This document shows positions 7,130 to 24,681 of a stretch of 64,000 nucleotides of DNA, in pieces. The translations under genes were made by a program, and so were the position numbers. The notes beneath the pieces are model-generated. The model was given only the letters and a program-made list of their open reading frames with translations. It searched no databases and was not told the origin of the DNA. The DNA is from Streptomyces marianii. GTDB taxonomy: Bacteria; Actinomycetota; Actinomycetes; Streptomycetales; Streptomycetaceae. The stretch covers positions 1,054,001 through 1,118,000 of the forward strand of contig NZ_VAWE01000001.1 in assembly GCF_005795905.1 (NCBI RefSeq). Reading direction: 5' to 3'. The first letter of the stretch is position 1. Every line of letters starts with the position of its first letter.

Positions 7130-8649
7130 GGGTCTTCGAATTTAGTGGGGGTGCGCCTGCCGTCGGCTCCGGCGGGTGGTCGCACAGCGTGAGCGTAGGC
7201 GCTGGTTGGCGCGGTTGCGGAAGCCGAAGGCGTTACGCGCTTCGAGCTTGATGAGGCGGTTGTTGCCTTCGGAGGCGGCGTTGGTGATGCCGGTGGTCAG
7301 GTAGGTCTCGATGCCGTCCCACCACTGCTCGATGGTCTCGGCGAGGGTGAGGAGTTCGTGCAGGTGGGCGTGGTCGGCGACGTGGGTGAAGAAGCGGTGG
7401 CGGGCGGCGGAGATCGCGGAGCGGTCGGGGGCGTGGTGGGTGCGGCTGACGGCCAGGCCGAGGAGGTCGCGCAGGAGTTCCTTGGCCTGCCAGGCCGCGT
7501 GGATCTGCCGGCCGTAGGTACCCATGTACTCCAACTCGGTCTTCAGGAGGAGGCGTTGGTCTTCGGTGAGGTCTTCTTTGTTGCGGCGCAGGAGTTTGCG
7601 GACGGTGTAGATGCCGTCGCCCTTGCGGGCCCGGCGGCCGTGCTGCCGCCAGGTGAGGCGTCGGCGCAGGTCGGCGAGGTGGCGCTGGGCGAGTTGCACG
7701 ATGTGGAAGCAGTCGACGACCACGGTCGCGTGCGGCAGGGCACGGTGGACGGCGGCGCGGAAGGTGGAACACAGGTCGATGGCGACGTAGCGCACCTGTG
7801 CCCGCCAGGATGCGGGCTGGGAGCTGAGCCAGTCGGCGACCGAGGTGGCGTTGCGGCCTTCGACCTGCCCGAACAGTCCTTGCCCGCCGATCGCGTCGAC
7901 GAAGCCGATGTGCCAGGCGTCCGCGACCAGTTCCCACTTCTGCGTGGCCGGGTTCTGGGCCCAGACCGGCTTGCCCCGCCGGGTCTCGTCGATCCCGACC
8001 GCCTCGGTCGCGGGCGGCGTCTCGGGCAGGACCGTCGCGGCGTAGTCCTCAAAGCATCGCTGCACGATGGGCCAGCTCAAGGACAGGTCGCGGCCGGCCT
8101 GCACGACGGTGCGGGATCCGTCGCAGACCGCGGCCCCCGCCGCCCGGCGCAGGGCGGTGGTGGTGCGCATCCCGGCGGGCACCGCGTGGATCGCCTCGGT
8201 GAACGAGCCGCGCTCGCACGCGGGTTCGGCGCAGTACCAGCGTGCCTTGCGCCACCGGATACTCACAGGGCGTCCACCGCAGGGCAGGTGCCGGGGCCGG
8301 GTGGTGCGGTAGTCCTTCAGCCGGGTGGCGAAGACCCCGCACGAGGGGCAGGCCCGGGCGGAGTCCTCGCTCGTGACCACGTACACCGTCGAACCGCCCG
8401 CCCCGTCGTCCTTGACCTGCGTCACACTCACCCCCTCCAGCCCCAGAAGTCGCGTTGCCGCTTCGTTGATGCCGGTATCGTCGCTGTTCAAGCCCGTGGG
8501 GTTTCATGATCGGTTGCCTAGACAACAACCATGATCACGAAGGCCCGCGGGCTCCTTGCGTCCAGGGCGCCCGCACCCCAACCACCTCACACAGCGTGAC
8601 CGGCGAGCGCGCCCGTCACCGCCGCACCCCCCACTAAATTCGAAGACCC
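7130..8649 (-). mobile_element. ISL3-family insertion sequence (second type), copy A (1,520 bp)
   Basis: Terminal inverted repeats start GGGTCTTCGAATTTAGTGGG at 7130 and end with the complement at 8649. A perfect 8-bp target duplication GGAGAAGT flanks it (7122-7129 and 8650-8657), the usual ISL3 size. The insertion splits gajB. Copy B at 11348-12867 has the same length and encoded protein in the opposite orientation. Confidence 0.95.
7142..8491 (-). CDS. ISL3-family transposase, copy A, about 449 aa
   Basis: This is an ISL3 transposase. The zinc ribbon (CPSCGVFATRLKDYRTTRPR near residue 50, then CAEPACERGSFTE) is followed by a helix-turn-helix and the catalytic domain: EAVGIDETRRGKPVW (first Asp region), VVVDCFHIVQLAQRHLADLRRR (second Asp) and TNAASEGNNRLIKLEARNAFGF (Glu). 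The in-frame start is a TTG at 8491; an ATG 20 bp upstream is in another frame. Translation is identical to copy B. Intact terminal repeats and target duplication suggest recent movement. Confidence 0.93.
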   Translation of the reverse strand: MNSDDTGINEAATRLLGLEGVSVTQVKDDGAGGSTVYVVTSEDSARACPSCGVFATRLKDYRTTRPRHLPCGGRPVSIRWRKARWYCAEPACERGSFTEAIHAVPAGMRTTTALRRAAGAAVCDGSRTVVQAGRDLSLSWPIVQRCFEDYAATVLPETPPATEAVGIDETRRGKPVWAQNPATQKWELVADAWHIGFVDAIGGQGLFGQVEGRNATSVADWLSSQPASWRAQVRYVAIDLCSTFRAAVHRALPHATVVVDCFHIVQLAQRHLADLRRRLTWRQHGRRARKGDGIYTVRKLLRRNKEDLTEDQRLLLKTELEYMGTYGRQIHAAWQAKELLRDLLGLAVSRTHHAPDRSAISAARHRFFTHVADHAHLHELLTLAETIEQWWDGIETYLTTGITNAASEGNNRLIKLEARNAFGFRNRANQRLRSRCATTRRSRRQAHPH

Positions 8650-10251
8650 GGAGAAGTTGGCCAGCATTTCGGGGATCTGGAAGCGAGAGTGTCCCTTGCT
8701 GACCACTGTGAGGACCCGGTTGAACTCCAGTCCCTTGACTCCGTGTTGTGTGGCGAAGGGCGTGCAGCCGCCGAGGTGCTCGTTCAAAGCCAGCAACTCC
8801 GCGTACGACACCTGGCGCAGTTGTTGGTACTCCTTCGATCGAGCCGCCGCCCGGGCATGGGCCTTGTCGTCACTCATGGCCTGTGGATCGGTGCCGGATG
8901 GTGACACGGCCTTCCGGTGACGCTCGCGCACCTTCCCCAGGCCGTCGAAGAGTTGCTGCTCAAGGCAGAGGTCGAGGACGTCGCCGACCGTGCCCGTCTC
9001 GCGGGCCTCCCTCAGTTTCGTCAGGAACGTCATCCATTCCTGCTTGGCGGCCGGCGAGTTGATGGGTGGACGGCCACGGGGGTCGAGTGCGTCGAACATC
9101 GCGCCATAGCGCTTGTTCCGGTGGTGGAGGAGGGCCGGTTCCAGCGTGTCCATGAAGAAGGCCATGGCGTGGTCCTCCTTCCTCACGTAAGAGTCGTTGC
9201 GCCGAAAGGCCCCGTGGAGCTTCTGATATCCCAGTTCGCCGGCGATCGTCTCGTGCGTGAGCATGAGGATCTTCGTGCTGGGCTCATCCGCCCGCACCTG
9301 GGCATCGTTACCGGATACTCCAGTGCTCCATAACCGGTCGCGGACGTCGTCCAGTACCCATTTCCGGGCCGCGTGGGCCGCGTCCCAGCCGAGCTGACCC
9401 TTCCGGTGGTGAGTAAGCCTCGTCCCGGCCCATTCGTTGGTGTGATAGACGGCGACGGTGCCCTCGCCAACTCCTGACGCCGTGGTCTGTGTCAGTTCGG
9501 GACGCATCGTGTTCAGGAGGTTCACGACGGCGCGCTGCGAGCGCCGATTGCGCCGTCTGAAGACCGGTGTCGGGCGGGCGTCCTCGAGTGCCCCGCACGC
9601 GTTGTCGTAGATCTGCTGCCAATGGTCCCCGAAGAAGCCGCAGACGGGGCTGCGCGCGGTGGCCTCATCGCCCGGCGTGCCCAGCATGGCCTCCACCAGA
9701 CCGGCAGGGGTGTCCTGGTACTCGTCCACGAAGACGATCGGGAACCGGTCGGCAGCCAGGGCCCGGAACTTGGGGAGGGCGAAGAACGCCCTCGCGAGGA
9801 CGGGCAGATCGTTGTGCCCCAGCTGCACGCGACGGGTGTCGTGGTCCACTTTCTGGAAGCCGGTGCTGTACTCGACGGTGTAACCGTCCAGTGAGGTGTG
9901 GCCCTCCATCTTCGACAGCATGATGTCCAGCTCGACGATGTGGCGCAACAGGTGCTTACGGAAAGGGGAGAGCAGCTGCCACAGGAAACCATGGATGGTT
10001 TCGGCGAACACGTACGGGCTGCGGTCGGTACGGCTGATGATCTCGTCGCGGGCCACATTGGTGTAGGTGACGCAGGCGATGCGCTGGTGGGGCCACGGGA
10101 GGTAGCGGGGGCGGTCAGCCAGGATGCTCTGGAGCGCCTCGATCAGTGAGCTGGTCTTGCCCGCACCGGCACCGGCCTCCACCTTGAAGTGACGGCCCGC
10201 CTGGAGAGCCGTCAGGATCGTGTGCGTGACGTCTTCCGCCTCGGTCGTCAC
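8650..10251 (-). pseudogene. gajB: gajB main body: UvrD-like helicase, interrupted by ISL3
   Basis: In Gabija-type systems the UvrD-like partner works with an OLD-type nuclease that senses nucleotide depletion and cuts DNA. From GTG 10251, which overlaps the gajA stop by 4 bp (GTGA), the protein has Walker A EAGAGAGKTS (about 25-34), motif Ia CVTYTNVARDEI, Walker B IVFVDEYQDT near residue 195, VCGFFGDHWQQIYD (motif III-like), and near the end CTPFATQHGVKGLEFNRVLTVV (motif V-like). The ISL3 copy cuts it after EMLANFSG and motif VI lies beyond at 6947-7129. An alternative name is 'class 2 OLD-associated helicase'. As it stands the protein lacks motif VI, so it should be inactive unless the element excises. 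Confidence 0.82.
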
Positions 10252-11347
10252 TGGACGTCCGCCTTCGTCGCCGTCCCGTCCTGTGCCATGAGCCACTCGA
10301 GGCCGCGCCTGATGTACTTCGGGACCTGCCAGTCGTGGTCTCCGAGGGCGTGGTCGAGGGCGAAGTCGACCTTGCTGCGCCTGGTCTCCACGCTGCTACG
10401 GGCCTGTTGTTCCAGTTCCTCGGCGGGAGCGGCACCTGTGGGGATACCGAACAGGGCCCGGTTGGCCAGCGCGAAGGCGTCCTCGAAAGTGCGGCCGCAC
10501 GGACCGCCGGGCTCCTCCGGCACCTGGTAGGCGAGGCACATGCTGCCGCCGGCGATCGGCGGGTCCGTCTCGGCCAGCTGCAGCAGCTCGGCCACCGTGA
10601 TGTCGGCCATCTCGGGGGACCACGCCCTGATGGACTGGTTGGACGTGCGTCCGGATTCGGACACCAGGCACTTGCGGATCTTGGGATCCCTGTCGTCGAC
10701 GGGATCAAGATCCGTGATGATCAGGGCTGGGATCCCGAGGACCTTCAGCAGCGGATAGAACCTGTGGGCATGCGCCCCGCCGACCTCCATCAAGGTCACG
10801 TACTGGTGCTGGGGCGTCTGTCCGGGCCTCCTCGCCGCCAGCTTCTCCTCCGCAGCCGGGACGAAGATACGCTCGCTGGCGCCCTCGACGAGGATGGCCT
10901 TGTCCGCGAAGTAGAGGTCGGCCCGGGTGAGGGTCAGGTACTTGCGGAGGAACCTCTCGTCGCCGGTCACCTGGGACAGGTCCTTGATGACGGTGCGGGC
11001 CGGCCCCGGCTCGCTTCCGCTCTCCACGGTGTCCTCCTCCTTCCGGAAGTACCGGATGTCGGCGAAGTGTCCCCGGTTGGCTACGTGTGCCGAGTGGGTG
11101 GTCACCACGAACTGAGCGTTCCACCGGGGGCTGCTGTCGATTGCGGTGCTGCTCTCCTCGACCGCTCCCTTTTGCCCGGGCATCGTCGCTCTCATCTGCG
11201 CGTCGATCCGAGGGAACAGATTGACGGAGTACGTGAGTCGCTGGATGAATGCCTCCTGCATCTGCGGATGCAGATGGGCCTCCGGTTCCTCCAGGAAGAC
11301 GAGATGGATCCCCGACTCCGGGGAGGTCGCCGTGTGGTCGCGATAGC
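10248..11347 (-). pseudogene. gajA: gajA 3' segment: OLD-type nuclease TOPRIM half, cut by ISL3
   Basis: This is the C-terminal half of an OLD-family ATPase/TOPRIM nuclease. ATPase motifs come first: GIHLVFLEEPEAHLHPQMQEAF (signature/Walker B with catalytic Glu) and AQFVVTTHSAHVAN (switch His). The TOPRIM part follows: ADKAILVEGASERIFVPA holds the conserved Glu and ALIITDLDPVDDRDP the DxD pair. The last third (TFEDAFALANRALF and onward) fits the extended C-terminus of class 2 OLD nucleases, which commonly sit beside a UvrD-like helicase. Its stop overlaps the gajB start by 4 bp, so the two were translationally coupled. The 5' part of the gene lies beyond ISL3 copy B; the two parts are collinear and share the duplication GCGATAGC. 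Confidence 0.83.
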
Positions 11348-12867
11348 GGGTCTTCGAATTTAGTGGGGGGTGCGGCGGTGACGGGCGCGCTCGCCGGTCA
11401 CGCTGTGTGAGGTGGTTGGGGTGCGGGCGCCCTGGACGCAAGGAGCCCGCGGGCCTTCGTGATCATGGTTGTTGTCTAGGCAACCGATCATGAAACCCCA
11501 CGGGCTTGAACAGCGACGATACCGGCATCAACGAAGCGGCAACGCGACTTCTGGGGCTGGAGGGGGTGAGTGTGACGCAGGTCAAGGACGACGGGGCGGG
11601 CGGTTCGACGGTGTACGTGGTCACGAGCGAGGACTCCGCCCGGGCCTGCCCCTCGTGCGGGGTCTTCGCCACCCGGCTGAAGGACTACCGCACCACCCGG
11701 CCCCGGCACCTGCCCTGCGGTGGACGCCCTGTGAGTATCCGGTGGCGCAAGGCACGCTGGTACTGCGCCGAACCCGCGTGCGAGCGCGGCTCGTTCACCG
11801 AGGCGATCCACGCGGTGCCCGCCGGGATGCGCACCACCACCGCCCTGCGCCGGGCGGCGGGGGCCGCGGTCTGCGACGGATCCCGCACCGTCGTGCAGGC
11901 CGGCCGCGACCTGTCCTTGAGCTGGCCCATCGTGCAGCGATGCTTTGAGGACTACGCCGCGACGGTCCTGCCCGAGACGCCGCCCGCGACCGAGGCGGTC
12001 GGGATCGACGAGACCCGGCGGGGCAAGCCGGTCTGGGCCCAGAACCCGGCCACGCAGAAGTGGGAACTGGTCGCGGACGCCTGGCACATCGGCTTCGTCG
12101 ACGCGATCGGCGGGCAAGGACTGTTCGGGCAGGTCGAAGGCCGCAACGCCACCTCGGTCGCCGACTGGCTCAGCTCCCAGCCCGCATCCTGGCGGGCACA
12201 GGTGCGCTACGTCGCCATCGACCTGTGTTCCACCTTCCGCGCCGCCGTCCACCGTGCCCTGCCGCACGCGACCGTGGTCGTCGACTGCTTCCACATCGTG
12301 CAACTCGCCCAGCGCCACCTCGCCGACCTGCGCCGACGCCTCACCTGGCGGCAGCACGGCCGCCGGGCCCGCAAGGGCGACGGCATCTACACCGTCCGCA
12401 AACTCCTGCGCCGCAACAAAGAAGACCTCACCGAAGACCAACGCCTCCTCCTGAAGACCGAGTTGGAGTACATGGGTACCTACGGCCGGCAGATCCACGC
12501 GGCCTGGCAGGCCAAGGAACTCCTGCGCGACCTCCTCGGCCTGGCCGTCAGCCGCACCCACCACGCCCCCGACCGCTCCGCGATCTCCGCCGCCCGCCAC
12601 CGCTTCTTCACCCACGTCGCCGACCACGCCCACCTGCACGAACTCCTCACCCTCGCCGAGACCATCGAGCAGTGGTGGGACGGCATCGAGACCTACCTGA
12701 CCACCGGCATCACCAACGCCGCCTCCGAAGGCAACAACCGCCTCATCAAGCTCGAAGCGCGTAACGCCTTCGGCTTCCGCAACCGCGCCAACCAGCGCCT
12801 ACGCTCACGCTGTGCGACCACCCGCCGGAGCCGACGGCAGGCGCACCCCCACTAAATTCGAAGACCC
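11348..12867 (+). mobile_element. ISL3-family insertion sequence (second type), copy B (1,520 bp)
   Basis: Same ends, length and encoded protein as copy A (7130-8649) but inverted. The 8-bp target duplication GCGATAGC is perfect (11340-11347 and 12868-12875). It splits gajA between the middle of the ATPase domain and its Walker B motif. Confidence 0.95.
11506..12855 (+). CDS. ISL3-family transposase, copy B, about 449 aa
   Basis: The protein is identical to the transposase at 7142-8491: zinc ribbon, helix-turn-helix, and DDE residues in EAVGIDETRRG, VVVDCFHIVQ and ASEGNNRLIK. The in-frame start is TTG 11506. Being in the opposite orientation to copy A, 2.7 kb away, it forms a long inverted repeat that could drive inversion of the segment between. 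Confidence 0.93.
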   Translation: MNSDDTGINEAATRLLGLEGVSVTQVKDDGAGGSTVYVVTSEDSARACPSCGVFATRLKDYRTTRPRHLPCGGRPVSIRWRKARWYCAEPACERGSFTEAIHAVPAGMRTTTALRRAAGAAVCDGSRTVVQAGRDLSLSWPIVQRCFEDYAATVLPETPPATEAVGIDETRRGKPVWAQNPATQKWELVADAWHIGFVDAIGGQGLFGQVEGRNATSVADWLSSQPASWRAQVRYVAIDLCSTFRAAVHRALPHATVVVDCFHIVQLAQRHLADLRRRLTWRQHGRRARKGDGIYTVRKLLRRNKEDLTEDQRLLLKTELEYMGTYGRQIHAAWQAKELLRDLLGLAVSRTHHAPDRSAISAARHRFFTHVADHAHLHELLTLAETIEQWWDGIETYLTTGITNAASEGNNRLIKLEARNAFGFRNRANQRLRSRCATTRRSRRQAHPH

Positions 12868-12875
12868 GCGATAGC

Positions 12876-13938
12876 AGGTGAAGAGCCTGAGCAGAATCAT
12901 CACCAAGTTCCGCGTACCGAGGCCGTTGTACGACTCAGGGAACCGCACACCGGCCACTCCTGGATAGTGAATGCGCGCGAAGTTCCTGAGCAGCCTCTTG
13001 GAGTCCAGCCGGGCGGCCGTGACGAACTCCTGGTTGGCCAGACCCGGATAGCCGAATGCCTTCAACGTCGGCGCCACCCGTTCGCGGACCTTCTGGAGGC
13101 TGCTGTCGAGACTGCCGGAGGTATCCACGAGTGTCTTGTCGATGTTCGCCGCGAGCTCCTCCAGCCACGTCGCGTTCTGGCTCTTCTCCGCCGCGGTCAG
13201 CAGTTACTCGAAGACCGCTCCGATTGGTGCGGCATGCCCGTCGCTCTCGTCGTCCAGCCCTCGCTGCGCCTCGACGAAGTCCACCCTCACCAGGGTGCGC
13301 ACGTCCGCGAGGTCGACCGGTCGGACGTTCGCCTCATCGGTCGGGTCCACCGCCATCACCGACATCTCGAAGTGCTTCGGGATGCCTCTGCCCAGCTGCT
13401 CAAGCGTGGCCGTGGCATCCGGCCCCACCGGCACGCCGCCGAAGAACTCCTTCAGGGCACCGTCCCCCAACGCGAAGGCGAACCTGATCACCACCTCGGA
13501 GCAGTCGGGGTCGAGGTCCACCACGAAGGGGGCCAGGGGTCCGTACTGGCCGCAGTCCTTGTCGTAGGAGATGTGGAGGGTGAGGGTGACTGCCGGAACC
13601 GTGTCGCGCGCCTGCTCTGCCTCGCCCGAGGCGAAGAGGCGATGGGCGGCCAGGAACTCCTCGTAGCAGTCGGCGGAGAAGTCCTCGATGCGCAGCGCGG
13701 CCTTCTTCCTCGCCACGAAGAATTCGAACAGTTTCGCAAGCGAGGTCTTTCCCGTGTTGTTGCGTCCGACGCACAGCGTCACCTTGTCGGTGAAGGAGAG
13801 CTCGGTTCTGCGGAGCAGCCGGAAGTTGCGGATGACCGCCTTGGTGAGCCGGGGCGGCACCGGGACTACGGTCCCGTGTGGTTCGGCGGAGCCGTCTCGC
13901 GGGCCTGGGATGGCACGCGGCTCACTGGGCTGGGTCAT
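12876..13938 (-). pseudogene. gajA: gajA 5' segment: OLD-type ATPase half, with an in-frame stop
   Basis: The start is ATG 13938 with AAGGAG 5 nt upstream. After a Pro-rich lead of about 30 residues the ABC-type ATPase begins at LTKAVIRNFRLLRRTELSF, with Walker A CVGRNNTGKTSLAKLFEFF near residue 60. The frame runs to VFE and then meets a TAA at 13204-13206; directly after it, in the same frame, homology-like sequence resumes (LLTAAEKSQNATWLEELAAN, then SLQKVRERVAPTLKAFGYPG) and continues to the ISL3 insertion. The gene is therefore broken twice: by a point nonsense codon and by the element. Assembled length without the element would be about 720 residues, longer than the founding GajA proteins (about 580). 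Confidence 0.8.
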
Positions 13939-14207
13939 CGCGGCTCCTTGCTGCGCTCGTACACACCCTGGGACGTCCGGCGGGAACACACAGCAAAGGG
14001 AGCCACAAGCCCCATGAGATGCCGTCACCCCTCAGGATCTGGGTCCGCATCTTGTCACCATAAATCTCTGAATGCACAGCGGTCACATTCGATTCAATTT
14101 CGGTCACCTATCGATCCGAATTCATTCCCGAATGTTCGAGATACGGCACCCATACGGCCACCACCTCACAGGCCAACGGACCGGGTGAGAGATGGCCATG
14201 TACGAGG

Positions 14208-15576
14208 CAGGGCTCCGTCAAGTTCCGCGGATGAGCGGGTGGTTGACGATCAGGGCCGGTAGGAGCGGATAGCAGTGCAGGCACGAGGGTTCGTGATCAT
14301 TGTGGTGACTAAGCCAGATGATCATGAGGATGTCCCGTGCCTGCCGTTGCATCTTCCCCTATACCTGCCGTGCTGGAGAAGCTGGGTCCGCTGGATGCGG
14401 ACCGGATCGCTGACCTGTGCCCCTACCTCGCATCGGTGCCCGATCCGCGTTCTCGCCGGGGCCGCTGGTACTCCCTGGTGTCGATCCTGCTGGTGTGTGC
14501 CTGCGCGGCCGTGTCAGGTGCGAAGAGCCTGGACGAGATCGCCGAGTTCGCCGAGCGGGCCACGAACACCCTGCTGGCGACCCTGAGGATCCGCCGTCAC
14601 CTGCTCGGCTGGCGGCGCAGCCCCAAGCCGGTCACCATCGGACGCGTCCTCATGGCGGTCGACGGCGATGCTTTGGACCAGGCCGTGGGCGCCTACCTCG
14701 CTGACCAGCACCGCAAGTCCGCGTGCGCGGATGCGTCAGCGGCCCGACCGCGGCGGGTCATCGCCGTGGACGGCAAGGCGCTGAAGGGCTCGGCCCACCT
14801 GGCCGCGCCGCGCCGGCACCTGCTCGCGGCGGTCACGCATCACCCCGTCGCCACGCTCGCACAGGTCGAGGTCGGCGCGAAGACCAACGAGACGCGGCAC
14901 TTCAAGCCCCTGCTGGCACCACTCCACCTCGCTGACGCCGTGGTCACCTTCGACGCCCTGCACTCGGTGAAGGCCAACATCACCTGGCTGGTCGAGACGA
15001 AGAAGGCACACTACATCGCGGTCATCAAGACCAACCAGCCCACCGCGTACGCCCAGCTCGCCGCTCTGCCCTGGACATCGATCACCGTCCAGCACACCGC
15101 CTCCGCCACCGCCCACGGACGGCGCGAGTCCCGGTCGATCAAGACCTGTTCCATCGCCGACAGCCTCGGCGGGATCGCCTTCCCCCACGCCCGCCTCGCC
15201 ATCCGCGTCCACCGCCGCCGCAAGCCCACCGGCAAGCCCGAGAGTCGCGAGAGCGTCTACGCCGTCACCAGCCTGGATATCCACCAGACCAGCCCCGCCG
15301 GCCTCGCCACCGCCATCCGCGGGCACTGGGGAATCGAGAATTCCTCCCACTACATCCGAGATGTCACCTTCGCCGAGGACGCCTCGACCGTCCACACCGG
15401 CAACGCGCCCCGCGCCATGGCTACCTTCCGCAACCTCGCCATTGGCACCCTGAAGATCCTCGGAGCCGACAACATCGCCAAGACCACCCGCGCCATCCGC
15501 CACGAACCCGAACGAGCACTCGCCATCCTGGGCATCACCAACAACCCCGACACTCACGGAACTTGATCAAGCCCTG
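14208..15576 (+). mobile_element. ISAs1-family insertion sequence, copy 2 (1,369 bp)
   Basis: The left end CAGGGCTCCGTCAAGTTCCG starts at 14208 and the right end is complementary-type ...GATCAAGCCCTG at 15576. The 9-bp target duplication TGTACGAGG is perfect (14199-14207 and 15577-15585). It lies about 270 bp upstream of the gajA start, so it may have separated the genes from upstream sequence but not disrupted coding sequence that I can recognise. It is an inverted twin of copy 1 (5578-6946). Confidence 0.95.
14337..15566 (+). CDS. ISAs1-family transposase, copy 2, 409 aa
   Basis: Translation is identical to the copy at 5588-6817, with catalytic residues in VIAVDGKALKGSA, VTFDALHSVKAN and GHWGIENSSHY. 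It is full length with no frameshift. Its start ATG is near the left terminus as in copy 1. The element faces away from gajA. Confidence 0.95.
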   Translation: MPAVASSPIPAVLEKLGPLDADRIADLCPYLASVPDPRSRRGRWYSLVSILLVCACAAVSGAKSLDEIAEFAERATNTLLATLRIRRHLLGWRRSPKPVTIGRVLMAVDGDALDQAVGAYLADQHRKSACADASAARPRRVIAVDGKALKGSAHLAAPRRHLLAAVTHHPVATLAQVEVGAKTNETRHFKPLLAPLHLADAVVTFDALHSVKANITWLVETKKAHYIAVIKTNQPTAYAQLAALPWTSITVQHTASATAHGRRESRSIKTCSIADSLGGIAFPHARLAIRVHRRRKPTGKPESRESVYAVTSLDIHQTSPAGLATAIRGHWGIENSSHYIRDVTFAEDASTVHTGNAPRAMATFRNLAIGTLKILGADNIAKTTRAIRHEPERALAILGITNNPDTHGT

Positions 15577-15645
15577 TGTACGAGGCGCACAGCGTGACCG
15601 GTGCTCAGCGAAGGCGTTGCGCCAGGAGCGGTGAATGGGCCCACA

Positions 15646-16530: not shown

Positions 16531-17685
16531 ATGTTCTTCAATGGCCCCGCGCACGTGCGCACCGATGCCAGGCTCTTCCCGGTCGGCACCGGCGTCCCCG
16601 TCGAGCAGGATCTGCCAGTCCAGCCAGAAGACTTGGCGCGCGCGTTGTTCATCACGGGCAGGGCCCCATACGACCAAACCAAGCACGGGAGGTCATCGGC
16701 ATACGAGTGGTGCCACAGGGTGGCGGTCCTGCCCGCCTATCTCAGCTGGAGCGATGATCCGGTCCGTCGCATCACACGTACCGACCTCGCCCGCGAGCTC
16801 GACCCCTCCGAGAAGGGCATGCTGTCCTACACCCTGGGGCAGGCCATGTGCCAGATCTTCGCCGAGAGGCAGCTATCCGTCCGGTTCTTCATGCACGTCG
16901 CCCGCTACGCTTCCGCCTACAATCTCACCTTCGCCCCCGGCCGGAGCCGGGCGGACTTCTTCGGAGAGCTGACCCTCGGCGGTTATGTCGTCGCGGAAGC
17001 CAAGGGCCGCTCGGGCCCGCTGACGAATAAGCTGCGCGAAGCCATGGAGGAACAGAAGAGGACAGTCAAGACCATCAAGGGCAAAGCGCCGAAGATCGCA
17101 TACGCGAGCGCGGTGCACTTCTCCTCCCCCCATAGCCCCATGCGTCTGACGGCAATCGCCCCGGACACAGCCGACCCTCGCGCCGTAGACCTCCCCGTCG
17201 ACCCGGACCTGCACGTGCTGGCCTACTACACGCCGTTCCTCGACGCGTTCGCCCATCAGGAACCACTCGTTCTGGGCGACTACGTCGTGGCTGGCTTCGC
17301 GGCGCTCGGCGTAACACTCGGGGTCTTGGCGCCGGTGCTGCAACGCGTGGAACGGGCGGCTCGACGCAACGAAACCGCAGGTCTTCGCGACGACATCCTG
17401 GGCCTGCTCGCCCGCCACCGGCCTCGCCAGGAGCGCACGCTCTACACCGACGGCACTCTCTTCGCGGCAGACTGGACGGTTCCCGAGGACCGGCGCCGCC
17501 CAGGCCGTCGGGACAGCGAGGTACTCCCCGACTTCCTGCACGAGGCGTTCCGCAGTATGAACGAGGAGGAGGACGACTGGCGAGTAGTGTCCGTGGAGGA
17601 GGGGGACCTCGACTGGCGGGATCTGTCCCCTGCCAGGGGCTACATGCCAGGAATCTTCCCCCAGGGTGATCTCCTCAAGGGCTGA
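16531..17685 (+). CDS. Hypothetical protein with a PD-(D/E)XK-like motif, 384 aa
   Basis: I do not recognise the full-length family. Residues about 135-160 read SRADFFGELTLGGYVVAEAKGRSG: an Asp followed about 14 residues later by a hydrophobic strand and E-A-K, the spacing of a PD-(D/E)XK nuclease core. Other features are an N-terminal region with ALFITGRAPYDQTKHGRSSA and a long C-terminal half with an acidic stretch (MNEEEDDWRVVSVEEGDLDW). There is no signal peptide or clear membrane segment. The start is the first ATG; the ribosome site is weak. Its place between Gabija genes and another defence-like operon suggests a restriction or abortive function, but that is inference from the motif and neighbours. 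Confidence 0.6.
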   Translation: MFFNGPAHVRTDARLFPVGTGVPVEQDLPVQPEDLARALFITGRAPYDQTKHGRSSAYEWCHRVAVLPAYLSWSDDPVRRITRTDLARELDPSEKGMLSYTLGQAMCQIFAERQLSVRFFMHVARYASAYNLTFAPGRSRADFFGELTLGGYVVAEAKGRSGPLTNKLREAMEEQKRTVKTIKGKAPKIAYASAVHFSSPHSPMRLTAIAPDTADPRAVDLPVDPDLHVLAYYTPFLDAFAHQEPLVLGDYVVAGFAALGVTLGVLAPVLQRVERAARRNETAGLRDDILGLLARHRPRQERTLYTDGTLFAADWTVPEDRRRPGRRDSEVLPDFLHEAFRSMNEEEDDWRVVSVEEGDLDWRDLSPARGYMPGIFPQGDLLKG

Positions 17686-17890: not shown

Positions 17891-17899
17891 GAGACGCAC

Positions 17900-18100
17900 T
17901 CAGCGCTGCACAATGCGTGTGCGGACGATAACCCGCGAAGGACCCTTCGGGAACGGCAAGGGCCTGAATCGCTGGGCAGCGACTTCACGCTCCACCCGGG
18001 GCGCCCCGCCCAAATCGAGCAGCAAACGATCGAGCTCACCAGCCGGAAGACGCTCCAGCATCCGGACCATCTCGCCAAGCTCGTCCCTGACCGACGTCAT
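17900..18100 (-). CDS. Small ORF, 66 aa, repeated-block copy 3
   Basis: The protein is MTSVRDELGEMVRMLERLPA through a basic C-terminus ending VIVRTRIVQR. I know no function. Relatives lie at 24097-24282 and, frameshifted, at 33337-33538. In all three places its start overlaps the stop of a metallo-beta-lactamase gene or gene fragment by 4 bp (here ATGA), so the pair was translationally coupled in the ancestor. Conservation of length, N-terminus and C-terminus between two diverged copies argues that it is a real gene. Confidence 0.5.
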   Translation of the reverse strand: MTSVRDELGEMVRMLERLPAGELDRLLLDLGGAPRVEREVAAQRFRPLPFPKGPSRVIVRTRIVQR

Positions 18101-18265
18101 CGCTCACCCGCGAGGTCGAGATCACCCTTGCTCGTCTCGGCCACACCCTCAGCGCGTTGGGGACGGCGCCACGGACGGGCGATTGGACCGGACACCGCCC
18201 GCCACCACGCCTCCACCGGCAGACTCCCCGCCGGCTCGAACGGCTCACCCGGCCTCGGGAACGCC
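18097..18265 (-). pseudogene. 3' fragment of a metallo-beta-lactamase gene, block copy 3
   Basis: About 55 codons remain (AFPRPGEPFEPAGSLPVEAW-like, then PQRAEGVAETSKGDLDLAGER and stop). They match the C-terminus of the intact hydrolase at 33535-34779 and closely match the fragment at 24279-24681. Similarity to the second copy ends abruptly near 18265. No metal ligands remain. It is followed without a gap by the small ORF at 17900-18100. Confidence 0.7.
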
Positions 18266-18356
18266 ACGGCAGCGGCGGCGAGCCGCCCACTTGGGTGTAC
18301 TCGGACTTCGCTCCGTTAGACCAGGCCGAGATACAGCTGACTTCGTCCACCTTCTG

Positions 18357-19451
18357 TTATCTGACGCTGTCGCCAGTCGAAGGGTTCGGGATCGGCGACG
18401 CTCGCGCGCGGCACAAGGGCAACGTCCCGGTCTCCGTCCCTGACGCCAGTGCAAGCACGAACTCGCCATGACGAGGCAGCGGCGGCGCGTACTGGAAGCC
18501 GTTCTCGGTGCGGGTGATCACGATGCTGCCTGCGCAGCAGCGACTCGCGGAGCGGCCACGGGCCATGGCCTCGGAGAGATGCCCTTCGGGTGGCGGCGGA
18601 GAGCCCAACTCGTGGCAGTGGACCGACAGCTGCGTGCAGGCGATGTGTGCGTCGGGTGCCGCCGCCCGTACTCCTTCGATGATTTCTGGTCGCGGATTGG
18701 CCGTTCGGCCGCTCGTCCCCATCGAGAAGATCACCATGCGCGGGTCAACCGCGGACGTGAGCGAGCGGGCGAACTCCACCGGATTCATAGCCCCGGGGAG
18801 GCCGCCGTGATGCGGGAAGACGAGTACATCCGCGCAGAGTTGCTGACTCCGGCGATCCAAGATGTCCCGTAAGCCGACGCCGTCGATGTCGCTCGCGAGG
18901 AGGACAGCAGCCGCGCCGTCGAGATGAATCCGGATGACGGCGGACATGGTGTTGCTCGTCACCGTGCCGAACCGGGCATCGCGCGTGCGCGGTCCCGAGA
19001 GCGCCATCAGCGACCGAGGATGACACACTTCAAGCTCTGCCCGACCCACCCGGATGGGCAGGCCCGTATCCGTGTAGACCGGCAGGATGCCCGTGATGCG
19101 CTTGTCGTCGTACACGAGCTGTAGAGTTTCCTGCAGGTGCCGCCACGCCCGAGTGTCCTTGGACGCGTCGGTGTTGACCCGGACGCGGCCGAGCGACCAC
19201 CGCGGGTCCAGGAGGAGTCTGTTCATTCCCGCGATGTGATCGTTGTCGACGTGCGAGACGACGACTTCCTCGAGGTCCGTGCAACCGAGTCTTTCGAGTT
19301 CAGCGTGTGTGGTGTCGTCCGCGGCGTCGACAACCGCGCACCGTTGCCCGTCGCGGACGATGGCGGAGTTGCCATGACCCACATCCAGGATCGTGACCGC
19401 AAGATCACCCTCGGGAGATACGCCCTGACGGGGGAGAAAAGAAACGGTCAC
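18357..19451 (-). CDS. ComEC-like metallo-beta-lactamase-fold hydrolase, 364 aa; third gene of sensor operon
   Basis: The start I prefer is GTG 19451, which overlaps the upstream stop by 4 bp (GTGA); a longer frame from 19505 would overlap by 58 bp. The protein has the ComEC/Rec2-type signature: VTILDVGHGNSAIVRDG near residue 25, VVVSHVDNDHIAGM (His67, Asp69, Asp71, His72; the H-x-D-x-D-H form of the MBL motif), the region AAVLLASDIDGVG and VFPHHGGLPG, a typical ComEC metal-site loop. No transmembrane segment or competence domain is present, so it is a soluble MBL enzyme. ComEC MBL domains have been assigned DNA-degrading activity, making a nuclease effector plausible. Its coupling to a kinase and a receiver protein suggests it is the output of that pathway. 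Confidence 0.8.
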   Translation of the reverse strand: MTVSFLPRQGVSPEGDLAVTILDVGHGNSAIVRDGQRCAVVDAADDTTHAELERLGCTDLEEVVVSHVDNDHIAGMNRLLLDPRWSLGRVRVNTDASKDTRAWRHLQETLQLVYDDKRITGILPVYTDTGLPIRVGRAELEVCHPRSLMALSGPRTRDARFGTVTSNTMSAVIRIHLDGAAAVLLASDIDGVGLRDILDRRSQQLCADVLVFPHHGGLPGAMNPVEFARSLTSAVDPRMVIFSMGTSGRTANPRPEIIEGVRAAAPDAHIACTQLSVHCHELGSPPPPEGHLSEAMARGRSASRCCAGSIVITRTENGFQYAPPLPRHGEFVLALASGTETGTLPLCRARASPIPNPSTGDSVR

Positions 19452-20164
19452 AGGGCGCGGACTTCCTCGGACAGTTGGGGGGCCAGGGAAATGTGTGCGA
19501 AGCAAAGGTCCTCAGCCCGCGGGGCGTAGCAGTTGACCTCGGCCCGTAACCAGGTGCCTGGCAGTAGGGCGTCGGCTTGGATCCCGGTGTCCTCCTCGAA
19601 GCGTAGGAGTGGCAGGTGCGCCACCTGCGTCAGGCTCCAGCCGCTGACCAGCACCTCGGCATACGGCGTTTCGCCTGCCAGATGCACGGCGAGGACCTCG
19701 ACCGGGGTGCGGAACCGGCTCCGCTCTCGTGACCACCTGCCGGCCGCCTCTTCGAAGGCGTATCGGACGGCGCCAAGGACTTCTTCTTCGTCGGCCTGCT
19801 TGCGGACGACCGCGGGAATGTCGGCCCGCCAACGGTGGATGGAGGATGCCTCGTGGGTGCCTACATGCGAACTCATAACGATGGCCGGGAGCTTGTGAGG
19901 GCTGCTGTTGGCCCGGGCAGCGAGCTCCGCTCCCGTGAACGCGACCGGCCAGCTGTTGCTCAGCTGATGGTCGCAGACGAGTACGTCTAGAGGGGGGAGC
20001 GTCGACAGATATTCCTCCGCCGTGGCGCGGGGCTGCGGCCGGGGCATGATCAGAGCCTGCATGTCGAAGTCTTCGAAGAGCCGACCAAGGGCTTCCGCGT
20101 CGGCCTTCACATCGTCTACGATGCCGACCCTGCGGACACCCTCAAGGTGCAGAGCCATCGTCAC
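19448..20164 (-). CDS. Receiver-domain protein (response-regulator-like), 238 aa; second gene of sensor operon
   Basis: The N-terminal 130 residues form a receiver domain: acidic pair D17-D18 in VGIVDDVKAD, probable phospho-acceptor D65 in LDVLVCDHQL, S98/S99 in AIVMSSHVG, and the conserved Lys122 in VVRKQADE. All functional positions are kept. The remaining 110 residues (VEVLAVHLAGETPYAEVLVS onward) are not a DNA-binding domain I recognise, so it is unlikely to be a transcription factor. It overlaps its neighbours by 4 bp on both sides. A role as phospho-relay partner or regulator of the MBL protein is an inference from gene order. Confidence 0.78.
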   Translation of the reverse strand: MTMALHLEGVRRVGIVDDVKADAEALGRLFEDFDMQALIMPRPQPRATAEEYLSTLPPLDVLVCDHQLSNSWPVAFTGAELAARANSSPHKLPAIVMSSHVGTHEASSIHRWRADIPAVVRKQADEEEVLGAVRYAFEEAAGRWSRERSRFRTPVEVLAVHLAGETPYAEVLVSGWSLTQVAHLPLLRFEEDTGIQADALLPGTWLRAEVNCYAPRAEDLCFAHISLAPQLSEEVRAL

Positions 20165-22415
20165 TCCTCCCGCTCGTCGTTCGTGGTCCCGGCGGGGAGG
20201 GTTGTCGTCGAGGCAGGCAACTCGACCAGGAGCCGGGCCCCTCCCAAAGGACCGTTTTTGAAAGCCTTCTGACGGCCCAGCATGTCGCCGACCGTGTCAC
20301 GGACGATGGTCAGACCCAATCCTGTCCCGCCGTCTCGCGTCGTGAATCCGGGAACCCAGATCTCTTCGGTCGAGGCATCCTGGATCCCTGGGCCCGTGTC
20401 ATCCACGATGAGGCGAATCCACGGGGTGTCCTTGTCGACGAAGGAGCACGTCGCGAGGTGGATCCTGCGCTCGGAACCGCCGTCCGTACGCGTCAGCGCG
20501 TGGATGGAGTTGACTAGTAGATTGGAGACGATGGATTCGACAGCAGCCTCGTAGGTTCGTACGCGAAGGTTCTGGCAGTCGAGGTCCTGGGTGACGTGAA
20601 TGCCGCGGTCACTTAGGAAGTTGTGGAACAGCCGCAATGTGGCCAGACACACTTCGTCGATGTCCACGTGTGTCAGATCGCGCTTCTTGCGGACAAGGAG
20701 TTCCAGGGGGAGCTTCGCAAAGATTTGCAAGGTGCGGGCCCCGTCCGTGATTGCGCTCAGAGACGGTTTGTAGCGATCGTCGACGATTGCCGGATCGAGG
20801 TCCCGACGCACCCTCCGGTCGACCGTGCGCACTTCCTGGAGAATGCGATCAGCGGGCTGCTGCGCCTCATGGGCGAAAACGGCGGTACTCGTTCCCACCG
20901 TGGCGAGAGCTCGGTAGAGGAGCAGCTCAGAGTGGAGATCCTTGATCTCGCGCAGACGCTGGTCCGCGAGGAGCTGCGAGGTGGTCAGGATGCGCTGTAC
21001 CGACGCACGGTCGAAGTTGCCGTCCAGACGGCCCTGATTATCCGCCAGTTGCTCTTCAAGGGCCTTCTTGGCCTCAGTGAATTCGGCCTCGGCGTCGGCC
21101 GTCTGCGCCTTCGCGCGATTGCGTTGATCCTGCCGTTCGGCCTCGCGAATCTGGCGACGGCGCTGTGATGCCCACTCGATCGCGGACCGGGCGAACTCAC
21201 GTAGCTCACCGAAGGCCGCGTTCTGGACGAAACCGCTACGGTCCGTCTTCGGCTGGAGGCGATCTTCTGGGTCGTTGACGACCAGAGCCCCTACGGAGTT
21301 GTTCGTGTAGGGCCGGAATTCGGAGAGCACAGCACGGCGGACATTGATGCTCAGCCAGTCGTCGTCAGGGTCGCCGTAGGGCTGGACGCGCAACCCGTGG
21401 TGATACAGGTGCACACCGCCGACGTCAGCGAGCCAGCTCTTGATCTCCGATGTCGGCTGAATCGAGTCACGCAGGGCGACCGAATGCCTCGGGTTGAGGT
21501 TGAACATCCACAGGTCGAACTTGGCCGCAGGGGAACTCGTGAAGAGACGTTGGCCGTCATCGGTGGTGGTTCGGCGTCGGACTCCTGCGGCCGCGGACCG
21601 AAGGTCGCCCGCCGTTGCGGTGCCGATCAGATGCCCTTGGTGGTCCCTGAGTTCCGCCGACTGTCTACCATCTGCACCGAGCCGCCCCGACAGGTGGAAC
21701 TCGGCCCACTGCAAATGTTCATCAGTCACGGCTGAGGTGAGGTCCTCGTATCCGAACGCCGTTTGATTCCAGAGGATCTTGAAGGTCGACTCGGCCTGAA
21801 AAGGGCCCGTGAGCAGCGTGAGCGAGCGCGTCAGCCGCTCGACATCGGCGACGCTCAACCCCTGCCGGAGATCGTGTATCTCGATACGAGTTCCCACGCG
21901 GGCGTGAGGCTGGACGTCGCGGAGTTCGAGCGCTACGTCCTCCACCGCATGGGCGGAGTCTAGTTCGTCCCAGTCGATACCCAGGGTGTACTGCACCCCT
22001 GGGGTCGCCGCTGATCGTGTCGTGACCTTCACTCGTCGGCCCAGGCGAAGCGCCGCAAGACGCCCGAGCCCCTTCTCGCCGACCCGCCTTCGACCGCTGC
22101 TGGTGAACGGCGTCGACGGTTTCCTCGAACTGCCGATGAGCAGAAAGTCGGAGGTGAGCTCGGCATCGGTCATACCGTGCCCGTCGTCCGAAACGATGAT
22201 CGAGCCGCCAGGGCGCGCGGAGTCGACCAACTCGATGCTGCACTCGGTGGCGTCGGCGTCGTACGCGTTGCGTACCAACTCCATGATCCCCATGTCCGGA
22301 TGCGGAACGAGCTCTTCACCAAGACGCGTGAGGATCTTGGGCGCGAAGCGCAGATAATGCCTGGCCAACCGGCGCCGCCTCTCATCAGCAGTGGGATCCC
22401 AGCATGCTAGCTGCA
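20161..22415 (-). CDS. Dual-GHKL sensor histidine kinase, about 751 aa; first gene of putative defence operon
   Basis: I chose ATG 22415 (MQLACWDPTADERRRRLARH); an upstream ATG at 22464 would add 16 poorly conserved residues. An Hsp90/MORC-like ATPase comes first: N-box GIMELVRNAYDADATEC (E46, N50), G1 SDDGHGM (78-82) and glycine-rich VGEKGLGRLAAL (112-122). A middle region and a charged coiled coil with a deletion-prone Gln/Arg-rich stretch (REAERQDQRNRAKAQTADA) follow. The C-terminal third is a histidine kinase: H-box VGTSTAVFAHEAQQPADRIL (His about 516), N-box SNLLVNSIHAL, G1 VDDTGPGI, G2 DGGTGLGLTIV. No transmembrane segment is evident, so it should sense a cytoplasmic signal. The stop overlaps the receiver gene by 4 bp. 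Confidence 0.85.
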
Positions 22416-22649
22416 TAATGACCCTGCAAGCGCAGCTTTCTGACGTAACGTCACAGCAAGCCACCCAGGCTCACTGAACTGTTGCATGATCTGGTGGCAG
22501 CGCAGTTTTGGAGCCCAGGCTGCGGGTGGGGCAATGATGGTCTTGAAGCTTCCCCTAGATCGCGGGCACCTGGAGACTGGGACGTGTGAGCCCAGAGGAA
22601 GCAGTGCCAGATGGGAAGTAACGATCTCGGGGGAAATAGCGATCGTACT

Positions 22650-22945
22650 GGTCGGGCCGTGACATGAGAAGGACCGCACGGGTTGGGTGAGTTGTGAGGC
22701 TGACCTGGGCCCGCGCGGCAAGCAGGCGGAAGGGGCCGGCCGTAAGCCGAAGCTGGTCTTCTACGACCGGCTGCTCGTCACCCTGGTCCACCTGCGACAC
22801 CAACTGCCGCACGAGGCCCTCGCCGAGCTCTTGACGGTGGACCGCTTCACCCTCTCTGAGGCGATCCGGCAGGTCCGCCCGCTGTCGGCGGCCCGCGGAT
22901 TCGCGGTGCCCGATTGGCCCGGCCTGAGACTCAAGACGCAGCGGG
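22650..22945 (+). pseudogene. IS5-like transposase, N-terminal fragment
   Basis: GRKPKLVFYDRLLVTLVHLR followed by QLPHEALAELLTVDRFTLSE and AIRQVRPLSAARGFAVPDWPG is the helix-turn-helix start of an IS5-type transposase. The match ends after LRLKT, where the reading frame passes directly into an IS3 OrfA tail. The open frame that spans both is a chimera created by insertion or deletion, not one protein. Confidence 0.7.
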
Positions 22946-23963
22946 AGAGACTCAAGCGACTGTGCAAGCTCGCCGCCGAGCAGGCCAAGACGATCGAGAT
23001 TCTGAAAAAGCGACGGCCTTTTTCGCGAAGGAGAGGGACCGGTGAGCGAGATGTACCGGTTCATCTGCGTGGAGAAGGCCCAATTCACAGTTGTCCTGCT
23101 GTGCGCCGTCCTCGGCGTGGCCCGCTCCTCGTACTACGCCTGGGAAGCCGGCAAGCAGGCCCGCGGGGTGCCCGAGCGCGAGGACCTCGCCCTGGTCCAA
23201 GAGATCACCGTCATCCGCGTCGCGTCGAAGAGGACGTACGGCGTTCCCCGGGTGCACGCCGAACTGCGCCGCCGGGGCGCCCAGTGAACCGCAAGCGCGT
23301 CGAGCGGCTCATGCGCGAACACCGTATCGCCGATCACAGCCGCCGCACCAGGCGTCGCACCAGGCGTCGCAGCCCCACCCGCGCCGACCGCAAGGCCGCT
23401 CCCGCTCCGGACCTGATCGGGCGCGATTTCACCGCTACCGCCCCGCGCCTGCGGGTGGTCGGCGACATCACCTGTGTCCTCACCGCCGAGGGCTGGCTGT
23501 GCCTGGCGGCCCGGCTCGATCTGGCGACCCGTGAGGTGATCGGTTACTCGATGGCCGATCACCACCGCGCTGGCCTGGTCGTCGACGCCCTGGACTTGGC
23601 CGCCGGCCTGGGCCTCCTGGAGGACGGCTGCATCATCCACACCGACCGCTTGAGTCCGGGGAGTACACCTCGGCCCGGTTCCGGGACAGGCTGGGCGAGT
23701 TGGGGCTACGGCAGAGCATGGGGCGGACCGGGAGCTGCTTCGCCGCCGCCGACGGTTTCTTCGCCGTCCTCAAAGAGGAGATCGGCACACGCATCTGGAA
23801 TGACCGGGCGAGTGCGCGAGCCGACATCTTCACGTTCATCGAGATCGAGACCTACTACAACCGCAGGCGCCTGCGCATACATCCCAACTGGGGCTACCTC
23901 ACGCCCCACGAGACCCGCCAGCGCCACCACGGAACGAAGCCAGAGCACGCCCTCACCGCATGA
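22946..23963 (+). pseudogene. IS3-family orfA/orfB remnant with frameshifts
   Basis: The OrfA tail QRERLKRLCKLAAEQAKTIE leads to OrfB in pieces: YRFICVEKAQFTVVLLCAVLG to KRTYGVPRVHAELRRRGAQ, where a premature stop interrupts; NRKRVERLMREHRIA, then an expanded Arg-rich RRTRRRTRRR stretch, then FTATAPRLRVVGDITCVLTA with the first catalytic Asp; IIHTDR with the second Asp; and, in another frame from 23700, FFAVLKEEIGTRIWNDR with the Glu and the end YYNRRRLRIHPNWGYLTPHE. At least two frame changes and a small deletion before FAAADGFFA make it inactive. Confidence 0.8.
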
Positions 23964-23967
23964 CAGA

Positions 23968-24057
23968 ACCCTGTCCAAGATCACGGGGAGGCTTCAGTTC
24001 CGAGCCGTGGCCACCCGCTACCTCGCTGGCCTCCGACTCGCCTCCCTCATCCTCTGA
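23968..24057 (+). pseudogene. C-terminal remnant of an IS5-type transposase
   Basis: A short frame KITGRLQFRAVATRYLAGLR ending LASLIL and stop resembles the end of IS5-subgroup transposases (usual ...KQFRAVATRYDK...). It does not continue from the IS3 remnant before it. It may be the far end of the element whose start is at 22650, split by the IS3 element, but the subgroups are not certain to match. Confidence 0.45.
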
Positions 24058-24096
24058 CTCCGTGAACCATGATCGTTTTGCCAGACACGGCCTTGC

Positions 24097-24282
24097 TCAG
24101 CGCTCCACGATGCGTATTCGGACGACAATCCGAGACGGGTCTTCCAGGGAGGGCAAGGACCTGAAGCTCTGAGCAGGGGCTTGATGCTCCGCCCTGGGCG
24201 CCCCGTCCAGGGCCCGGACAACACCATCGCGCTTCTCAGCCGGGAGACGCTCCAACATCTGGACCGTCTCCCAACTCGTCAC
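24097..24282 (-). CDS. Small ORF, 61 aa, repeated-block copy 2
   Basis: The start is the GTG/ATG region overlapping the end of the preceding metallo-beta-lactamase fragment by about 4 bp. Sequence: MTSWETVQMLERLPAEKRDG, a middle similar to GAPRAEHQAPAQSFRSLP and a basic end VVRIRIVER. It is the closest relative of the ORF at 17900-18100. Function is unknown. Confidence 0.45.
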   Translation of the reverse strand: MTSWETVQMLERLPAEKRDGVVRALDGAPRAEHQAPAQSFRSLPSLEDPSRIVVRIRIVER

Positions 24283-24681
24283 CGACCGACGTCACCGCTC
24301 ACCAGCAAGGTCGAGATCACCCTTGCTCGTCTCGGCCACACCCTCAGCGCGCCGGGGACGGCGCCACGGACTGGCGATCGGACCGGACACCGCCCGCCAC
24401 CACGCCTCCACCGGCAGCTCCCCCGCCGGCTCGAACGGCTCACCCGGCCTCGGGAACGCCACCGCCTGACCAGCCTCCTCGGCCTCGTACTTCGTCCACT
24501 CCCCCGGCTCCGCCCACGCGTGCAACGCCAGGTTGAAGGTCCCCCAGTGGATCGGCAGCAGAACCCCGCCCGGACTGCCTCCCTGCAGGTCAAGATGGGC
24601 CTGCACCCCCTGGGCCGGCGACATGTGAATGTCTGGCCAGGCTCCAGGCAGCGGCGTATAGTCCGTGTGGTTCTTGGGCCA
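24279..24681 (-). pseudogene. 3' fragment of a metallo-beta-lactamase gene, block copy 2
   Basis: About 130 codons match the C-terminal third of the intact hydrolase at 33535-34779: KNHTDYTPLPGAWPDIHMSP-like start, AQGVQAHLDLQGGSPGGVLL, PIHWGTFNLALHAWAEPGEW, AFPRPGEPFEPAGELPVEAW, and stop after LDLAGER. One His of the active site (PIHW) is kept; the main HxHxDH motif is absent. Similarity to the intact copy ends sharply near 24681, marking an old recombination or insertion junction. Confidence 0.75.

Follow-up and report, generated by a model that had tools for sequence, protein, structure and literature searches.

A 64,000-nucleotide stretch of Streptomyces marianii (assembly GCF_005795905.1, contig NZ_VAWE01000001.1, positions 1,054,001 to 1,118,000; hereafter the window), from a genome of 9.0 Mb, carries on its minus strand three open and intact genes, arranged head to tail: one for a dual-GHKL kinase, one for a receiver protein and one for a soluble ComEC-type metallo-beta-lactamase (MBL). 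These three genes are a conserved operon, a variant of the paraMORC-kinase/receiver elements linked to restriction-modification (R-M) in a 2021 report (PMC8011034), in which the MBL is new with respect to that report's main text. We consider it somewhat probable that the operon acts as the restriction arm of an R-M-like defence gated by a phosphorelay; sensing, the direction of the relay, cleavage and phage protection are what we infer.

A conserved operon and its three proteins

The kinase gene spans 20161..22368 when read from a TTG codon, or 20161-22416 from an ATG. The TTG at 22368 (735 aa) is the likelier start, because the sister operon L134 (genome G235) has a stop codon after the equivalent ATG and the equivalent TTG is its first in-frame start. 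The receiver gene (19448..20164) would encode 238 aa from GTG 20164, which produces a 4-bp overlap with the kinase gene, or 236 aa from ATG 20158, which lies just past the kinase stop and is preceded by GGAGGA. The gene for the MBL-fold protein, a predicted DNase effector of 364 aa, occupies 18357..19451, and its GTG start overlaps the receiver gene by 4 bp. An earlier note on this DNA had described three intact genes joined by 4-bp overlaps; the intactness and the MBL/receiver overlap stand, while the receiver/kinase overlap exists only if GTG 20164 is used.

Genome contigs were scanned for kinase relatives using a query built from four operons, all MBL-bearing, and the best 80 of 531 were retained. 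Of these best 80 loci, 52 formed a close clade, in which 47 had at least 1.9 kb downstream of the kinase. A receiver gene was present at 45 of the 47 and a receiver followed by an MBL at 44, the exceptions to this order being L040 and L044 (type F, see below) and L047 (a PIN_3 gene, see below). Across 295 genomes of the genus, the MBL occurred in nine, with the close kinase in those same nine and directly upstream in every case (9/9); five further genomes contained a kinase relative without the MBL, which was of type F in two and a distant one in three. Each of 20 genomes checked contained a single receiver of the family. Plasmid records yielded three kinase relatives (35-37% identity over 95%), from a cyanobacterium, Burkholderia and Hymenobacter, each followed by a receiver and then an MBL, the cyanobacterial MBL being split by an insertion sequence (IS); blastn recovered no DNA relatives of the operon on plasmids. 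In IMG/VR contigs, receiver and MBL accompanied 6/6 close kinases and a DNA methyltransferase (MTase) 5/6, counts that include two loci resembling near-copies (L163/L164) and one with the kinase and receiver in pieces (L162). Phage records gave one partial kinase match (52% covered, 29%), and in the kinase tree members of this clade came from 11 phyla. The co-occurrence of the three families, which the earlier note had anticipated, was thus borne out, and the patchy distribution (9/295 genus genomes) ruled out a core function.

The operon was also preserved in sequence between close relatives. A collinear block on the minus strand (18266..22430; blastn, 4179 columns) showed 90.8% DNA identity to L134, the 4.18 kb starting 14 bp ahead of ATG 22416 and ending 91 bp beyond the stop codon of the MBL gene. 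Ratios of nonsynonymous to synonymous substitution rates (dN/dS) between the window and L134 were 0.106, 0.110 and 0.143. The operon is therefore under purifying selection in this pair of genomes, both of them MTase-free (see below), and decayed or chance open reading frames (ORFs) were ruled out by dN/dS of 0.11-0.14.

Pfam placed HATPase_c_3 at residues 44-158 of the kinase (75 bits) and HATPase_c at 624-735 (70 bits), for an overall layout of an N-terminal paraMORC/HgiDII-like GHKL ATPase, a middle region and linker, His516 (counted from ATG 22416), and a C-terminal histidine-kinase ATPase. The NCBIfam BbrUII/HgiDII model matched residues 32-225 at 85.5 bits, far under the model cut-off of 550. 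When the kinase profile was compared with the PDB, the N-terminus matched MORC2/MORC3 at E ~8e-6 and the C-terminal half matched histidine kinases, in agreement with the previous description of an Hsp90/MORC-like ATPase joined to a histidine kinase. Kinase alignment A6 comprised 52 of the 57 kinases listed, without L037, L040 and L044 (examined separately), L052 (truncated at a contig end) and L101 (the same record as L007); L053, also truncated, was not in the list. His516 was invariant (52/52), as were Glu517 and the tested GHKL residues at both kinase ends, except for Gly675 (44) and Lys390 (50). At E up to 1, no TPR family was found in the kinase by Pfam, and no protease family in the kinase or the receiver.

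In the receiver protein, Response_reg scored 21.9 bits, below the Pfam cut-off of 30.2. The AlphaFold2 model, with a predicted local distance difference test (pLDDT) score of 94.4, consisted of a receiver fold followed by a strand-rich C-terminal stretch, whose five strands fall within residues 149 to 225 when numbered from ATG 20158. The 50 Foldseek matches listed were all receiver domains aligned to the receiver part; no DNA-binding output domain was matched by Pfam, and those Foldseek matches cover the receiver part. Based on alignment A5 (52 of 53 receivers, without L101), the phospho-Asp at the position of Asp65 (counted from GTG 20164) was invariant (52/52), the acid pair was conserved in 51 and 52, and a Ser/Thr occupied the switch position in 51. 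His516 and Asp65 thus lie where the earlier note had placed them. Its further statement that the receiver has all key residues needs qualification, as the family does not conserve the switch Lys (see below). No DNA-binding domain was matched, in line with the note, but the protein is not a bare receiver.

Pfam matches of the MBL protein were to Lactamase_B families only, and neither the channel domain nor the OB domain of ComEC was found fused to it by Pfam. The MBL profile matched ComEC structures 9vcb, 9vcf and 9ic4 (E 1.8e-19 to 4e-18), and with the window sequence alone ComEC/Rec2 was the best match (E 3.2e-6). In the structural model (pLDDT 87.5), the MBL strands begin at residue 17, and the top fold match was 9ic4, the ComEC nuclease domain (E 1.3e-14), with template modelling (TM) scores of 0.74 (target) and 0.56 (query). 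The ComEC-like HxDxDH, D and HH motifs were all present. Across alignment A4 (47 of 51 MBLs, without L001, which is split by an IS, L041, L054 and L101; L048, also split, was not in the list), H67, D69, D71, H72, D188 and H214 were invariant (47/47), as were H215 and four cysteines. The first six align to H598, D600, D602, H603, D700 and H725 of Moorella ComEC, whose residue numbers were assigned by fit to the motif spacing. According to passages of PMC12455585, H598, D600, D602, H603 and D700 of ComEC coordinate metal and H725 is a putative DNA-binding residue; most changes to the metal ligands leave the ComEC domain virtually inactive, with D600A ~5-fold down. Taken together, the profile, the fold and the retained active-site residues agree with the soluble ComEC-type MBL first recognised here from the sequence, and the case for a predicted nuclease is strong.

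Methyltransferase linkage and exchange of effectors

Many relatives of the operon have a DNA MTase beside it, which the earlier note had missed. One family of N6-adenine MTases, with D60-P61, G64 and N164-P-P invariant (n=21), adjoined 25 of the 42 receiver + MBL loci that had at least 1.2 kb upstream. All of these were non-cyanobacterial (25/29, vs 0/13 cyanobacterial loci, where the test consisted of the N6 profile only, with Pfam applied to single neighbours of L016, L020, L023 and L035). Some DNA MTase was adjacent at 28/29 non-cyanobacterial loci, including a C5 MTase directly downstream and convergent in L038 and L039, and a distant N6 MTase directly upstream in L050 (142 bits). The gene could lie upstream in the same orientation, divergently, or downstream (at L025 it is upstream by coordinates), and in the Burkholderia and Hymenobacter plasmid records an N6-type MTase gene immediately precedes the operon. 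Seven of the nine genus genomes with the operon had the MTase. At the level of the family the case for a link to R-M is strong, but the window's own copy is without the MTase.

The 33 loci with more distant kinases were grouped by their downstream genes, with three assigned to none of types B-E; the window-type operons are referred to as type A. Type B (9 loci) has a receiver and a gene of ~210-260 aa, most of the loci also having an N6 MTase. The small proteins were HNH endonucleases in the 3 tested with Pfam and carried a CxYC..HxxP..NL..CxxCN pattern in all 9, and the HNH gene occupies the operon position of the MBL. In type C (8 loci) a 351-404 aa protein and a gene of 230-246 aa are accompanied by an N6 MTase. 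Type D (10 loci) has a 357-411 aa receiver-type protein in a layout resembling that described in passages of PMC8011034, and 8/10 have an MTase related to one annotated as a cytosine MTase in L004; type E (3 loci) has an L004-related MTase and a 447-464 aa protein. The type A receiver profile matched the proteins of types B, C, D and E with probabilities of 97.8, 92.8, 96.4 and 75.1, in each case over the receiver part alone, the strand-rich C-terminal stretch being common to type A receivers and not detected in types B-E. On a tree of 80 kinases the types required five changes, the minimum possible. This tree (80 rows) was built by a quick method with support from the Shimodaira-Hasegawa-like approximate likelihood ratio test (SH-aLRT) only, without distant loci L062, L063, L068, L070, L073, L078, L079 and L089-L091, genus operons L130-L133 and L135, and all IMG/VR loci.

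Two further genes stand at the same operon position. The type C 230-246 aa family (e.g. L061:6520-7245) lies at the nuclease position of types A and B, had no Pfam match in the 2 members tested and has invariant Asp, HPxxH and PR residues in all 8, which suggests an undescribed effector. In L047, a Thiomargarita metagenome-assembled genome, a PIN_3 gene (11875-12282) overlaps the receiver end by 4 bp where relatives have the MBL, and might encode another type of effector, or else be a toxin gene with no connection to the operon.

The tree nested type F (L037, L040, L044 and L136) within the MBL clade (support 96 to 100). All four kinases had a PstI/BsuBI restriction enzyme (by Pfam, 4/4) and an MTase (by profile, 4/4) as neighbours, and beside none of them was a receiver or an MBL found. 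As judged from the tree and these neighbours, one sub-branch has exchanged its receiver and MBL for a PstI/BsuBI R-M pair. The phospho-His position was Tyr in L037, Arg in L040 and a gap in L136, with His kept in L044; the N-terminal motif residues remain, and among the C-terminal ones Gly697 is replaced by Ser in L040 and L136. Since the His was lost together with the receiver in 3/4, type F fits the prediction of a His-Asp relay, from which L044 differs.

Genomic surroundings

Beyond the collinear block collinearity stops, and copies of a direct repeat (up to ~370 bp) flank the operon in both the window genome and G235. In the window, both copies are on the minus strand: the downstream copy (17899..18270; ~370 bp, 84%) starts at the end of the collinear block, and the upstream copy lies at 24096..24465. 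The repeat has four matches in the window genome, which all fall within ~122 kb and of which two are shorter or weaker; judged by eye from its translation, it seems to contain the last part of a metallo-hydrolase-like gene together with the beginning of another ORF. An IS-type transposase ORF (22687..24057, plus strand; Pfam HTH_Tnp_4 32.4 bits, and rve 30.9 bits, the latter under cut-off) separates the operon from the upstream copy. This IS need not have replaced an MTase, because L006 and L007 have theirs downstream of the MBL.

Elsewhere in the window, GajB was identified at 8587-10296 (570 bits) and the C-terminal half of GajA at 10248-11441. These Gabija genes sit between two 100%-identical inverted IS pairs (7130-8650/11347-12867 and 5577-6946/14208-15577), and 5577-15577 resembles a recently formed composite transposon enclosing a broken Gabija system. 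A type IIG restriction-methyltransferase fragment (1198-2244, 106 bits over residues 203-344), ~16 kb away, was the only R-M trace seen near the window operon; it scored 52 bits against the operon MTase profile, for which full-length-scoring members beside operons reached at least 377. A 384-aa ORF at 16531-17685 had no Pfam or PADLOC match. Near the sister operon, L134:3969-6692 encodes an NB-ARC/TPR protein with a STAND-like make-up.

Interpretation and comparison with known systems

Literature on MORC/paraMORC proteins, R-M, receivers and phage-defence kinases, from which subscription papers and bioRxiv were mostly absent, contained one direct precedent, PMC8011034, whose passages describe dual-GHKL kinase + receiver pairs linked to R-M and leave their function open. 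As in the window, its HEF_HK/Response_reg_2 elements pair a neighbouring receiver gene with a soluble kinase that has HATPase_c_3 at its N-terminus (83.4% of theirs) and HATPase_c at its C-terminus, and, as in many of the relatives, they stand in an R-M neighbourhood; unlike in the relatives described here, the prominent MTase is C5. The main text of that report uses 'lactamase', 'MBL', 'ComEC' and 'phage' 0 times each, so that "undescribed", as the operon had been called, may still apply to the MBL and no longer applies to the kinase/receiver pairs. PF19191 (HEF_HK) gave no match to the window kinase at E up to 1, nor to 8 distant kinases or control genomes, and as it matched no kinase tried, this negative has no positive control; PF19192 (Response_reg_2) likewise gave no match to the window receiver at E up to 1, with no positive control seen. 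By key words, a paraMORC paper (PMC2292703, Iyer 2008) contains no receiver and a 2026 BREX survey (PMC12839542) no lactamase or MBL, in the portions covered. An N-terminal GHKL ATPase like that of the window kinase is also found in HgiDII/BbrUII-type restriction enzymes, as represented by the NCBIfam model, and in VcSduA. According to passages of PMC12137116, changes to the ATPase and to the nuclease of VcSduA each abolish defence; VcSduA has ATPase and nuclease in one polypeptide, whereas in the window a histidine kinase and a receiver come between them.

Under the reading that we favour, the N-terminal paraMORC/HgiDII-like GHKL ATPase is the probable sensor of foreign DNA, around which it would dimerise in an ATP-driven manner. 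This would activate the C-terminal kinase, with phosphate placed on His516 and passed to Asp65 of the receiver, a transfer suggested by the conservation of both residues and by the loss of the His in most kinases without a receiver. The phosphorylated receiver, perhaps via its C-terminal part, would then switch on the ComEC-type MBL nuclease, and cutting of DNA is predicted from its fold, its catalytic residues and the HNH genes at the same operon position. The adjacent MTase presumably marks self DNA in most non-cyanobacterial relatives; in the window lineage, the relay itself may restrain the nuclease, or another enzyme may mark self. The relay is supported by residue conservation and by type F, and kinase-receiver-nuclease logic, as put forward in the earlier note, appears to be the best reading of the operon. 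More tentatively, and with rather more doubt than confidence, the whole family might be built around a MORC-like clamp ATPase-kinase that reads foreign DNA and fires, by His-Asp transfer, interchangeable nucleases (MBL, HNH, perhaps PIN) in place of a classical restriction enzyme; self would be marked by an adenine or cytosine MTase or, in MTase-free versions, told from non-self by the clamp alone.

Detocs, to which the earlier note had likened the operon, comprises a kinase with an N-terminal TPR, an effector fused to its own receiver and a second stand-alone receiver. The window operon shares with Detocs (PMC11249213, in part) the three genes and the two-component logic with an effector. It differs in having no TPR match, a single receiver gene, an MBL without a receiver and a GHKL ATPase at the kinase N-terminus, and its relatives differ in the MTase partner that many possess. 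These domain differences, with TPR families sought at E up to 1, ruled out membership in Detocs. No paper treating Detocs together with kinase, receiver and effector was found in the literature searched.

A Detocs-like mode of action is a separate matter. The relay might fire a toxic effector so that the infected cell dies, the MTase being an accessory with no part in marking self from non-self; we regard such abortive infection as unlikely, although it deserves serious attention. The order of kinase, receiver and effector suits it, and purifying selection in the MTase-free pair is better suited to an infection-triggered switch than to constitutive restriction. In passages of PMC12799240, moreover, the ComEC-like MBL of Hachiman is a potent, broad DNase once activated, and the protease-MBL pairs of AVAST, Lamassu, Hachiman and DRT resemble the window in having a soluble ComEC-like MBL, held off until the partner activates it. 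The partner there is a trypsin-like protease, of which there is none among the window's three genes, and the window MBL matched models of the protease-MBL type weakly (RTasMBL 25.6, PDC-M48B 25.3 and Avs1a 14 bits; in a second model set, 6A-MBL 22 and Avs1a 16.5 bits). Against abortive infection, the frequent pairing with a DNA MTase and the PstI/BsuBI R-M pair of type F tie the kinase to R-M.

It is improbable, in our estimation, that the operon serves to regulate restriction, or that it keeps out incoming plasmid or transforming DNA instead of phage. Passages of PMC8011034 speculate that its kinase/receiver pairs control R-M systems, and phage resistance given by a kinase and response regulator through CRISPR-Cas control is on record (PMC8523701, in part); the similarity to ComEC and the operons on plasmids would fit a barrier. 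Against this, Pfam matched the receiver to no DNA-binding output domain, and the third gene is itself a predicted nuclease. An MBL acting as a phosphodiesterase on a nucleotide signal or a phosphorylcholine-type substrate, within a stress-signalling unit, is very improbable: the fold search placed Pce/CbpE (phosphorylcholine esterase) at ranks 2-4 and Apyc1 at 46, and Pce was also among the profile matches, but the best sequence and fold matches are ComEC nuclease domains, the six ComEC active-site residues are kept, HNH genes and one PIN gene occupy the same operon position, and DNA MTases are linked to the operon.

Several observations weigh against a phosphorelay-gated, R-M-like defence. 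The family MTase gave three partial matches of at most 36 bits by profile in the window genome, and at best 43 bits in the sister genome G235, as compared with 552 and 534 bits in control genomes; a single-protein search of the window genome, which had no control, returned nothing. On this profile, a family MTase elsewhere in the window genome was therefore ruled out, and the plain R-M reading requires some other self protection. The simplest reading is that the MTase was lost in the window's lineage, because in the tree its nearest MTase-bearing relatives, L006 and L007 (the latter an S. virginiae contig), have kept theirs, downstream of the MBL. No adjacent MTase was found at L064, nor any family MTase, by the N6 profile, at the cyanobacterial loci. 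With respect to the relay, L044 has kept its phospho-His with no receiver, and the switch Lys, present near its position in the window, is not conserved among the receivers (K in 12 and R in 23 of 52).

The surroundings also failed to set these loci apart. Neighbour proteins of 19 loci were compared by PADLOC (E up to 1e-10) with those of 19 control stretches of the same genomes, using 150/151 case and 129/152 control proteins; the resulting 103 vs 75 families, obtained with crude ORF picking and overlapping families, showed no clear difference, with defence genes in both. Among the 25 families shown, cases included MTases, CBASS and PDC genes, and controls CRISPR and pAgo genes. The defence-rich location cited in the earlier note is real as far as the Gabija genes (with GajA cut short) and the restriction fragment are concerned, but the case/control comparison did not separate the loci.

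If a phosphorelay-gated, R-M-like defence is the correct reading, a textbook His-Asp relay would here fire a DNA-cutting enzyme instead of controlling genes, joining signal transduction to restriction and providing a new way to control it. It would also give a concrete output to kinase/receiver pairs of the kind described in passages of PMC8011034, and the MORC-like ATPase would become testable as a sensor of foreign DNA in a small soluble system, for which type F, with its receiver absent and its phospho-His mostly lost, offers a natural control for the relay.

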